Shown here: one piece after another, positions 91-21,247 of the stretch
Layout: every line of letters begins with the position of its first letter
Numbering within the stretch: the stretch's first letter is position 1
IMG/VR virus record: IMGVR_UViG_3300020442_001984
Span: 1 to 23,141 of that record
DNA length: 23,141 bases
Origin: a virus
Direction: 5' to 3' (one strand)
The notes under the pieces: model-generated
Databases searched by the model: none
Seen by the model: the letters and a program-made list of their open reading frames with translations, nothing else
What the model was told of the DNA's origin: nothing
Program-made: the position numbers and the translations under genes

Positions 91-795
91 CTATATGAAT
101 ATGGCCTGTGTTATACGATCTATGTCAGTAAATTTACCAGTATTCATAATAGGAGCTTGCAATAAATCGGCAGGAATGATCACTGCTCTATTATATTTCA
201 TACCAAAGGTAAACTCTCTATGCCAAGTAAATGCAGATTCATAGACATCTTTTATGATATCAAAATGTTTTTTAGAGGCATACATCGCCTTCATGTCCTC
301 AACTATAGAGGTCTTTCCAGCAAAGTTCCATATGTTTGTGCCACCAAAACATTCTTCTGTTTTGTTCAAGTATATCTCTACCTTAAATTGAAAAGGCGAT
401 GGGTTATGTTCATACCATAATTGAAAAGGTATGAGTCGATCTGGTTCATCTACCATTGTCTGTTCATTCAAAAACTCAACAAGAAACCACATAAACTCCA
501 TATTTTCGTGAAGAGTTTGTTTATGACATGGCCTGCCCCAGTGTCCGTCATCATGGCATATCTGTTTGAGTATATGTTCTAAATTTTTTCTTACTTCACC
601 TGTTTCATATGCCGCCCTTTCTATACCATTTGGATGATTATTAAATGGTATATTTTTTTCTCTTGGTAACTTCAATGCGAGATTTCTCACTTCATCTGGA
701 TTTGCATAAAAGTTATCTATTACTATGGCACTTCTATCTTCTGGGCCAATATCCGTGATGGCAGTTATTTCTAGGTCTGGGTTGACTTCAAACAT
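91..795 (-). CDS. Probable 2OG-oxygenase-fold protein (DUF6445-like)
   Basis: About 234 residues from the ATG at 795. A longer frame opens with TTG at 813, but the ATG gives a tight 8-nt ATGTTTGA overlap with the upstream gene, so I prefer it. The N-terminal IVIDNFYANPDEVRNLAL matches the opening of cyanophage and bacterial DUF6445/2OG-Fe(II) oxygenase-like proteins. The central EIYLN...FGGTN segment resembles the YLN...GGT strand motif of that fold. The usual iron-binding histidines are not clear: the expected H-x-D reads EHN, and the distal histidine position reads LLQAP. It may be catalytically degenerate. The substrate is unknown. It sits in a run of small accessory genes between the tmRNA and a structural gene. 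Confidence 0.55.
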   Translation of the reverse strand: MFEVNPDLEITAITDIGPEDRSAIVIDNFYANPDEVRNLALKLPREKNIPFNNHPNGIERAAYETGEVRKNLEHILKQICHDDGHWGRPCHKQTLHENMEFMWFLVEFLNEQTMVDEPDRLIPFQLWYEHNPSPFQFKVEIYLNKTEECFGGTNIWNFAGKTSIVEDMKAMYASKKHFDIIKDVYESAFTWHREFTFGMKYNRAVIIPADLLQAPIMNTGKFTDIDRITQAIFI

Positions 796-976
796 CTTTA
801 TTTCTTTCTTCAACTAAATGTTCAACTTCTGAGGCAACTTTATCCATCACCTCTCTTACATCAGTTCCTGATCCAGAGGTATGATAGTAGTCTTGTCCTT
901 TTGGAGCGTAATGTCTGGTGTGGAGTGTCCAATGCCACTGCTTTACACCTTTAGAATACCAAAATTGTAAACGCAT
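788..976 (-). CDS. Hypothetical 62-aa protein
   Basis: Small protein opening MRLQFWYSKGVKQWHWTLHTR. It is rich in aromatic residues and histidine in the first half, with a charged helical C-terminus (VREVMDKVASEVEHLVEE). No family is recognised and no signal peptide or membrane segment is seen. No Shine-Dalgarno precedes the ATG. The stop overlaps the start of the next gene by 8 nt, which supports translation as a pair with the oxygenase-like protein. It lies just downstream of the tmRNA 3' hairpin. Confidence 0.55.
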   Translation of the reverse strand: MRLQFWYSKGVKQWHWTLHTRHYAPKGQDYYHTSGSGTDVREVMDKVASEVEHLVEERNKDV

Positions 977-996: not shown

Positions 997-1015
997 AAAG
1001 GGGGCAGAGCCCCCT
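997..1015 (-). terminator. GC-rich hairpin at the tmRNA 3' end, probable terminator
   Basis: On the minus strand, AGGGGGC and GCCCCCT form a 7-bp stem with a 3-nt loop, followed by UU, C and an AU-rich stretch. The U run is short, so it may be a weak intrinsic terminator or a protective 3' helix that stops processing of the coding piece. Confidence 0.55.
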
Positions 1016-1059
1016 ATGGTCACTTGGGTAACAAGGAGTAACCAATCCCCGATTGCCCC

Positions 1060-1134
1060 TTAGGCAGTGACGAGTTCGTCAGTGCGGGCAAATTCTCTCG
1101 TAAGAATACGAGAGAACGCTACGATGTTGTTCGC
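1060..1134 (-). CDS. tmRNA proteolysis-tag reading frame (24 aa)
   Basis: The frame starts at a GCG resume codon (1134-1132) and reads ANNIVAFSR..., then ends ...DELVTA before TAA (1062-1060). Cyanobacterial tags begin ANNIV or ANKIV and usually end VAA, so the start identifies the lineage. The frame could begin one codon earlier (GCT, 1137-1135), adding one Ala. At 24 residues it is clearly longer than the roughly 15-16 residues typical of cyanobacterial tags. The C-terminus is VTA rather than VAA, which may change recognition by ClpXP-type proteases. There is no initiation codon or ribosome site, as expected for a tag. Confidence 0.82.
   Translation of the reverse strand, partial: ANNIVAFSRILTREFARTDELVTA
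1093..1116 (-). repeat. Perfect 10-bp inverted repeat inside the tag frame
   Basis: TTCTCTCGTA and TACGAGAGAA are exact reverse complements separated by a 4-nt loop (TTCT in the minus-strand sense). The hairpin covers the codons for FSRILTRE in the middle of the tag. It may be the counterpart of the P5-type helix found around the tag in other tmRNAs, or an insertion that lengthened the tag. Confidence 0.85.
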
Positions 1135-1306
1135 AGCAGTGTCAGATGATTTTGCATCTGTGGTTTGCTCTCCGAGCAGGTTTTCAGTCATGCTCCTTGT
1201 ACCCTGTCGAAACCATTGCACCCCCTAGCTTATGGAGGTGAGGGGAGTCGAACCCCTGTCCAAAATATCGGTGGCATCACCTACATGGCTTTTTTAAAGT
1301 CGTCCA

Positions 1307-1453
1307 TCAGGACTTGACAGTTGGTTTCTCGTTTAAAACTTTTGCTCCTGTCTGCTTAGCAATGTATGCTGCAAGTTCTGGTGTCTCTTCCCATTCCCAT
1401 ATCTGATTATGTTGGGGATTTTTTTTCTCAATCGTGAGTGTGCGTTTTACCAT
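1307..1453 (-). CDS. Hypothetical 48-aa protein
   Basis: The start chosen is the ATG at 1453 (MVKRTLTIEKKN...). It has a strong AGGAGG Shine-Dalgarno at the right distance, whereas the longer in-frame extension to 1534 lies inside the upstream gene and has no such site. The product is small, basic at the N-terminus and carries IWEWEETPELAAYIAKQTGAK, probably one helix. No family is recognised. It overlaps the upstream gene by 26 nt, and its stop lies immediately before the tmRNA acceptor piece, so the tmRNA may be cut from a transcript that also carries this gene. Confidence 0.6.
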   Translation of the reverse strand: MVKRTLTIEKKNPQHNQIWEWEETPELAAYIAKQTGAKVLNEKPTVKS

Positions 1454-1709
1454 TTTCAACCTCCTGTGATAATAGTTCGATCTCATGTTCGAGTCCAATG
1501 ATTCTGAGTTCTGCATCACTGGCAGACCTCTCAAGGGCTCTCACTTTGGTACTCAAGTTTGCAATTTCTACTCCAAAGGCATTTATATTTTGAAGTAGTA
1601 ACTCATTACCAAAGGTTGTAGGATTACCTTTCTCAGCGTAAGCGGTATCTTGAACCTTCTCACACTCAGCTAGATATTCTTCTCTTGACATTCTGTTTTC
1701 TTTTGCCAT
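1428..1709 (-). CDS. Hypothetical coiled-coil protein, 93 aa
   Basis: Opens MAKENRMSREEYLAECEK. Residues about 40-86 show heptad-like spacing (VEIANLSTKVRALERSASDAELRIIGLEHEIELL), predicting a coiled coil. No enzyme motif is seen. The ATG overlaps the stop of the upstream oxygenase by 1 nt (TAATG), suggesting coupled translation. It could be a small virion or assembly protein, but its function is unknown. It shares a short PTTFG string with the adjacent oxygenase, probably by chance. Confidence 0.6.
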   Translation of the reverse strand: MAKENRMSREEYLAECEKVQDTAYAEKGNPTTFGNELLLQNINAFGVEIANLSTKVRALERSASDAELRIIGLEHEIELLSQEVENGKTHTHD

Positions 1710-14062: not shown

Positions 14063-14782
14063 TTAAGCGAAAAAATCCGTTAGCCCCTCTAGTTCTATAG
14101 TATTTTCTTTGTTGGTCTTAGGATTTGTTACCTTTAATGTATGTTTCAATTTGGGCATAGTATCAAAGAATTTTTCAATCTTCTGAAACTGTTCCGATGT
14201 CAATGATTCGACCCATTCTTTAAGTTCTTTTTTAGTACACTCAGATGCTGAGAACATCTCTTCATCATTATAAACCATGTCAATGGATTGTGCTACAATG
14301 TTAAATGATTTTTCAACTTGATTTTTTTCATCATCTTGGAAGTTAGTTTCTACAAACTGGCTCAATGATGGGTATTTCATTTTGACAGTGTATCCATCAG
14401 CTAATTCTATATCTGGAGAATGATCATCATCTTTCACAACCTTAATATCATCAATACTCACAGTTACAGGAACTTCTGTAACTCCATCATCACCACATGT
14501 TACTATGAGTTCAATTGTTTCACCCACAGATTTGCCACGAATATTTAAGAATAAGTATTCTATGTCAAAGCTAGGTAGAGTGTCAATCTTTATTCCTTTG
14601 GTTAAAACACATTCTTTGAGAACTTGCTTAACAGCATTAGAAATTTGTTTTTGATCTTGAGATTCAAGCGAAAGTATGAGAATTTTTTCTTCTCTCACCA
14701 AAAATGGTCTGTATTTTACAGTTTTTCCATTTGATGGCAATTTCAATTCATACTCAGCCGTCGTAATTTTAGGTAAGGGCAT
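14063..14782 (-). CDS. 26: Baseplate hub assembly protein, gp26-like
   Basis: Family T4_baseplate (gp26). MPLPKITTAEYELKLPSNGK, then YRPFLVREEKILILSLESQD and FDIEYLFLNIRGKSVGE (about 70-86) are the diagnostic blocks. The C-terminal half is helical with ELKEWVESLTSEQFQKIEKF and ends IELEGLTDFFA. The length of 239 residues is a little above T4 gp26 (208). It is the first gene of the long minus-strand baseplate operon, with a late-type CTAAATA element about 20 bp before its ATG. In T4 it acts in hub assembly. Confidence 0.88.
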   Translation of the reverse strand: MPLPKITTAEYELKLPSNGKTVKYRPFLVREEKILILSLESQDQKQISNAVKQVLKECVLTKGIKIDTLPSFDIEYLFLNIRGKSVGETIELIVTCGDDGVTEVPVTVSIDDIKVVKDDDHSPDIELADGYTVKMKYPSLSQFVETNFQDDEKNQVEKSFNIVAQSIDMVYNDEEMFSASECTKKELKEWVESLTSEQFQKIEKFFDTMPKLKHTLKVTNPKTNKENTIELEGLTDFFA

Positions 14783-20996: not shown

Positions 20997-21247
20997 AGTG
21001 GTAATTTAGATCTACTTGTTCTTTTTAGGTAATTTAGTTCTGTTGCTTCTGCTTTTAATTTATCTTTGAGAGGTTTAGAAATTAATTTACCTACTGATTC
21101 AAACTCAATATTCTTCTCTTCACAATAACTAATAATTGCTTCAATATAATTGAGTTCAGTGGTAAGTACAAGTTGCTCAATGTCACTTGTAAACTTATTC
21201 TGACAGAGAAATTTCTCCTTTAGCAGTTCATTAACTTCTTTCTCCAT
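20993..21247 (-). CDS. 33: Late transcription coactivator, gp33-like
   Basis: T4 gp33 links the sliding clamp, RNA polymerase and the late sigma factor at late promoters. The 84-aa product begins MEKEVNELLKEKFLCQNKFT and contains NYIEAIISYCEEKNIEFESV, then GKLISKPLKDKLKAEATELN. It ends YLKRTSRSKLPL. This is the pattern of the marine phage late-transcription coactivator (Trans_coact) family: a two-helix core and a short hydrophobic C-terminal tail that could bind the clamp. The start at 21247 is chosen for its CGGAGAG site; a longer frame to 21352 lies inside the nuclease gene. It overlaps the nuclease by 17 nt. Confidence 0.78.
   Translation of the reverse strand: MEKEVNELLKEKFLCQNKFTSDIEQLVLTTELNYIEAIISYCEEKNIEFESVGKLISKPLKDKLKAEATELNYLKRTSRSKLPL

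Follow-up and report, generated by a model that had tools for sequence, protein, structure and literature searches.

The tmRNA locus and its surroundings

The window, that is, the whole stretch of 23,141 bases analyzed here, is an IMG/VR virus record carrying T4-like genes (tail tube, baseplate tube cap, gp32 and PhoH). The encoded gp32 shares 81% identity with its counterpart in Synechococcus phage S-SSM7, and the genes around the tmRNA have homologs in the same order in that phage. Based on the homology of structural and replication genes and on synteny, the contig is assigned to a T4-like cyanophage (Kyanoviridae, S-SSM7-like), in agreement with the phage origin initially proposed for the tmRNA. 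The features of the locus are as follows:

1307–1534, minus strand: small phage ORF (phrog_558) just upstream, its stop about 8 nt from the start of the tmRNA model; homolog in S-SSM7
1001–1299, minus strand: complete circularly permuted two-piece tmRNA gene of the cyanobacterial type (whole RF01851 model and ARAGORN)
1233–1299, minus strand: acceptor half, first in the gene, with 5' leader, T stem, T loop, acceptor 3' strand and A73 (sequence and covariance model alignment)
1226–1232, minus strand: intervening sequence TAAGCTA, 7 nt (from sequence), presumably removed in maturation
1219–1225, minus strand: acceptor 5' strand GGGGGTG, 7/7 pairs with the 3' strand, position 3-70 being G-U
1206–1215, minus strand: tmRNA D-loop signature TGGTTTCGAC (sequence and RF01851 alignment)
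1060–1134, minus strand: tag frame ANNIVAFSRILTREFARTDELVTA, 24 aa, with TAA at 1062–1060 (translation; start by comparison with cyanobacterial tags)
1092–1117, minus strand: 11-bp hairpin A with loop TTCT, within the tag frame (fold and apical-pair changes)
1084–1107, minus strand: in-frame 24-nt insert encoding ILTREFAR, absent from the 16-aa phage tag ANNIVAFSRTRELATA (comparison with L047/L071)
1064–1085, minus strand: H5-like hairpin B where the tag frame ends, adjoining hairpin A (two-sided changes)
999–1015, minus strand: GC-rich 3'-terminal stem GGGGGC/GCCCCC followed by TTTC (terminal stem of RF01851)
788–976, minus strand: small phage ORF (phrog_2818) downstream, conserved beside the tmRNA (homology)

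The upstream ORF at 1307–1534 is probably co-transcribed with the tmRNA. Further out, a homolog of the phrog_1644 "minor coat protein" (91–813) and a 2OG-Fe(II) oxygenase gene (1709–2233) flank the region, both with homologs in S-SSM7 and Sf-FS3. The late-promoter motif CTATAAATA was not enriched near the tmRNA gene relative to shuffled sequences. Scans for sigma-70 promoters and terminators yielded nothing above chance and nothing at the tmRNA gene; the 3'-terminal stem was likewise not among the terminator output.

Identification and anatomy of the tmRNA gene

Three detectors concur on the gene. RF01851 (cyano_tmRNA) matched positions 1299–1001 over its entire model (1–288 of 288) with 123.1 bits (gathering threshold 70; E=2.6e-33), RF04321 (tmRNA_permuted) matched 1281–1060 with 88 bits (gathering threshold 47), and ARAGORN called a permuted tmRNA at 1322–969. 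Beyond these scores, the acceptor half precedes the coding half with the intervening sequence between them, the alanine identity elements G3-U70 and A73 are present, and the open tag frame has a cyanobacterial start and a stop codon. The original prediction of a complete permuted two-piece tmRNA of cyanobacterial type, for which it had proposed a covariance model search and named a missing hit as counterevidence, is thus borne out. The region also folds far more stably than shuffled sequence (z -7.3). The Rfam scan of the window revealed no riboswitch; a mir-1302 match at 14074–14025 scored below its gathering threshold and was dismissed as a chance hit.

The tRNA-like parts could be read directly from the sequence. 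The T stem AGGGG/CCCCT encloses the loop TTCGACT (1252–1246), and the acceptor 3' strand CACCTCC (1240–1234) is followed by the discriminator A73 at position 1233. The perfect 7-bp acceptor stem with its G3-U70 pair, the 7-nt spacer, the T loop and the D-loop signature had all been predicted correctly. Spacers of 4–9 nt are found in most phage relatives. The gene sequence lacks CCA, which must therefore be added by a nucleotidyltransferase.

Relation to known tmRNAs

Two-piece tmRNAs of phages are an already published kind to which the gene in the window belongs, and the novelty implied in the original prediction does not hold. A 2022 catalog covers 402 phages and 133 unique tmRNA structures, among them 53 of the two-piece form, 50 of which are aquatic; it includes cyanophages, and marine phage tmRNAs were grouped with host lineages (PMC9004378). 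A tmRNA database holds 79 unique phage sequences (PMC11915505), and the S-SSM7 genome, which contains the gene, appeared in 2010 (PMC3037559). In S-SSM7 the gene is unannotated in GenBank GU071098, where RF04321 matches 21008–21227. The hypothetical ORF SSSM7_025 at 21009–21227 (L002 4033–4251) coincides with it and almost certainly encodes no protein; annotation has thus missed the tmRNA, and a spurious ORF overlies it.

The tmRNAs of S-SSM7 and S-SSM6a share locus and permuted architecture with the window copy, and the tag DNA of S-SSM7 is identical. S-SSM7 differs in its acceptor strands (GGGGATG/CATCTCC instead of GGGGGTG/CACCTCC, a compensatory change), in a spacer of 5 rather than 7 nt, and in its D-loop signature (TGGCTTCGAC instead of TGGTTTCGAC). 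Permuted tmRNAs above the RF04321 cut-off are also present in S-CAM1, S-CAM3, Sf-FS3, AG-345-P14, S-CRM01 and S-CBWM1. In contrast to the window, the tags of S-CAM1/3 (ANNIVAFSRSTVAA), Sf-FS3 (ANNIVAFSRTRELATA) and AG-345-P14 (ANNIVVFSRIRQLATA) comprise 14–16 aa and lack the insert, and the gene of S-CAM1/3 lies in a different neighborhood. Methylophilales phage Melnitz and Pelagibacter phage Mosig resemble the window phage in being marine, T4-like and equipped with a two-piece tmRNA, whereas the Melnitz tmRNA is of the alphaproteobacterial type and linked to a glutamine riboswitch (PMC9004378).

The ssrA genes of marine Synechococcus and Prochlorococcus, whose two-piece tmRNA was confirmed by Northern blot (PMC1242208), share the permuted layout, G3-U70, A73, the ANNIV start and the unencoded CCA with the window copy. 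They differ in the acceptor stem (GGGGCTG/CAGCTCC, with C5-G68) and in a tag of 16 instead of 24 aa.

The tag and its insert

ARAGORN proposed a tag of 31 aa that starts seven residues earlier; this is a choice of the program rather than evidence, and the ANNIV start common to the hosts was preferred. The tag is conserved in a coding-like manner, with 50 distinct phage tag DNAs encoding 29 peptides and differing mostly at third codon positions, a pattern partly biased by the search anchor, to which the first five tag codons belonged. Host tags from 16 picocyanobacterial ssrA genes follow ANNIV[R/S]FSRQ[A/T]APVAA (16 aa; one ANKIV). Phage tags begin with ANNIVAFSR in nearly all cases and continue into a variable tail with divergent C-termini. 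All 16 host tags end in -PVAA, while the distinct phage copies end in TA (29), AA (23), TV (7), AV (5) or others (3). Position 6 changes from R/S in hosts to A in 65 of 68 phage copies; one collection scan had fixed this A, but a T-arm scan had not, and its loci agree.

The window group carries a tag of 24–25 residues, ANNIVAFSR[I/V/L][L/M][T/S]REF[A/S]R..., that is eight residues longer than in relatives with 16-residue tags, where the sequence is 24 nt shorter and the insert is absent. The insert contains an inverted copy of the codons before it and thereby forms hairpin A (TTCTCTCGTA-TTCT-TACGAGAGAA). Setting the long-tag rows apart from the host rows requires one change on the tree. As L035, L101 and L346 stand apart from the other long-tag rows behind weak forks in the drawn tree, a single origin of the insert is as compatible with it as two.

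Hairpins A and B together fold with a z of -5.67. Hairpin B shows clear covariation, with two-sided changes at three pairs, and occurs in a shifted register with different sequence in three relatives. The apical pair of hairpin A varies among A-U, G-C and C-G, and the encoded amino acids change with it; one internal pair, however, is broken by a C-A mismatch, which 8 of 14 relatives show. All 15 long-tag copies encode Ser8 by TCT, where TCC prevails in other phages, and Arg13 by AGA, which is what pairing in hairpin A would require. We consider hairpin A probably real, without claiming selection on it as proven. In the papers that we searched (literature only, not the tmRNA databases), no description of the insert or of the phage-wide tag shift was found.

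Lineage and distribution

Among 70 distinct phage copies from IMG/VR and GenBank, all have G3-U70 and A73; rows without 5' GG or without A73 had been dropped as mis-registered, so that the invariance of those letters partly reflects row selection, while the 3-70 and 5-68 pairs are unaffected. Pair 5-68 is G-C in 45 copies, A-U in 16, C-G in 6 and U-A in 3, which in the alignment is compensatory change. Apparent spacer-nested tRNAs or odd acceptor stems in L262, L264, L265, L314, L324 and L343 resulted from mis-registration with upstream tRNA genes and were excluded.

In the tree, the 16 picocyanobacterial ssrA genes lie on one side of a branch (99/100) and the phage copies on the other, with uncertain positions for L387 and the long-branch L111. 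Alignment with the marine Synechococcus and Prochlorococcus genes, as suggested in the original prediction, found the same type of tmRNA, with at most 70% identity between the window copy and the closest of the 16 host genes. The tmRNAs of S-SSM7 and S-SSM6a are 89.9% and 89.6% identical to it as a whole. In the mRNA-like half, the window and S-SSM7 share 95.0% identity, compared with 61–79% for the flanking genes. The proposed search for the locus in other cyanophages recovered it in S-SSM7 and Sf-FS3. The phage tmRNAs look like an old lineage of their own and not like a recent acquisition.

No tmRNA was found in 17 other sampled cyanomyovirus genomes, in a search in which four known carriers score but whose filters were stricter, so that weak copies could be missed. 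Such a patchy distribution implies that the tmRNA is not essential for the lifestyle. Between the window and L034, block 788–1220 is 98–100% identical, compared with 63% for ORF 91–813 and 72% for the 2OG gene, which suggests that the tmRNA and the downstream small ORF are also exchanged between phages by recombination. The block, in which the coding half of the tmRNA lies together with the small ORF, is probably a recently exchanged cassette.

Proposed function

A search for smpB, positive in 10 of 14 genomes as a control, found none in eight records (seven tmRNA-bearing cyanophage records and the window fragment). The combination of smpB with ssrA that would mark autonomous trans-translation is therefore lacking in all of them, and the phage RNA must use SmpB and AlaRS of the host. 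The original proposal that the phage copy replaces host ribosome rescue is hence at most half right.

We consider it probable that the window carries a working phage-borne ssrA gene that serves ribosome rescue together with host SmpB during infection. The gene would be transcribed from the minus strand with its neighbors into one precursor, from which host tRNA-processing enzymes would excise the 7-nt spacer and to which they would add CCA, leaving two RNAs joined by the acceptor stem and a long tRNA-like helix. Host AlaRS would charge the product via G3-U70, and host SmpB would bring it to ribosomes that have stalled at the ends of broken messages. There the nascent chain would receive Ala and then ANNIVAFSRILTREFARTDELVTA (or this tag counted from its first Ala), and the ribosome would be released at UAA. 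The benefit would most likely lie in keeping ribosomes available during the destruction of host RNA. Infection by a T7-like cyanophage is reported to increase host RNase E (PMC10989914), from which truncated messages would arise, and we infer that this also applies to T4-like cyanophages. As the hosts already have ssrA, a second copy may bring only a modest gain. The literature that we searched contained no proof of a role of phage tmRNA in infection.

Other readings have to be weighed against such host-assisted rescue. The original prediction also raised a recoding of degradation tagging. It is conceivable, though rather unlikely, that the phage tmRNA competes with that of the host and that its different, longer tag is read differently by proteases, in favor of the phage. 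The systematic difference between phage and host tags, greatest at the C-termini but also affecting position 6, and the eight additional residues in the window clade would fit such recoding. However, AA still ends many phage tags and QAAPVAA, the tail known from hosts, persists in some, a tail under weak constraint and coupled to the H5-like hairpin would look alike if it drifted, and the A at position 6 was preset in one scan, even if the T-arm scan agrees. We regard as similarly speculative that the tmRNA of the long-tag clade is a phage-specific instrument, in which the inverted-repeat insert, by turning a 16-residue tag into one of 24 residues and placing a second hairpin in frame, alters RNA stability or decoding as well as the protease handling of tagged proteins during infection.

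It is improbable that the gene is a non-functional passenger, picked up recently from a host or retained solely because it serves as a site of recombination or integration. Its sporadic distribution and the recombination-like contrast between the nearly identical downstream ORF and mRNA-like half shared with L034 and the much less similar flanks are what a passenger might display, but the gene is intact, it is conserved among phages of a clade that is itself divergent, its acceptor stem changes in a compensatory fashion, and both the tree and the distance to every host copy compared separate it from the hosts. Very improbable is a decoy that titrates host SmpB or blocks host trans-translation. 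This was proposed for the tag-less tmRNA of phage DS6A (PMC4131195, PMC11915505), and the lack of smpB in carrier phages would agree with it, yet the gene in the window retains an open, conserved tag, a stop codon and tag hairpins that a decoy would not need. Since phage (...SRILTREFARTDELVTA) and host (...SRQ[A/T]APVAA) tags can be distinguished by mass spectrometry or RNA probes, and S-SSM7 is available as an isolate together with its host Synechococcus WH8109, which of the two tmRNAs rescues ribosomes in infection is directly testable.

Related loci

In several permuted phage tmRNAs a complete tRNA gene lies inside the spacer, between acceptor half and coding half: tRNA-Asn (gtt) in L092, L101, L312, L344, L346 and L347, and tRNA-Tyr (gta) in L093, L271, L283, L288 and L319. 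A spacer-nested tRNA-Ala in a nominally archaeal MAG was reported as a unique case (PMC11915505). The nesting in cyanophages involves two different tRNAs, and excision of the tRNA would itself help to mature both tmRNA pieces. Permuted phage tmRNAs in L011, L012, L016, L020, L022, L025 and L084 form a second group, whose tags are unrelated. Upstream, these loci have in common a conserved motif near GTAGGATGGTAGTAGA; the reading frame downstream contains an SGGADS-like motif reminiscent of an ATP-pyrophosphatase.
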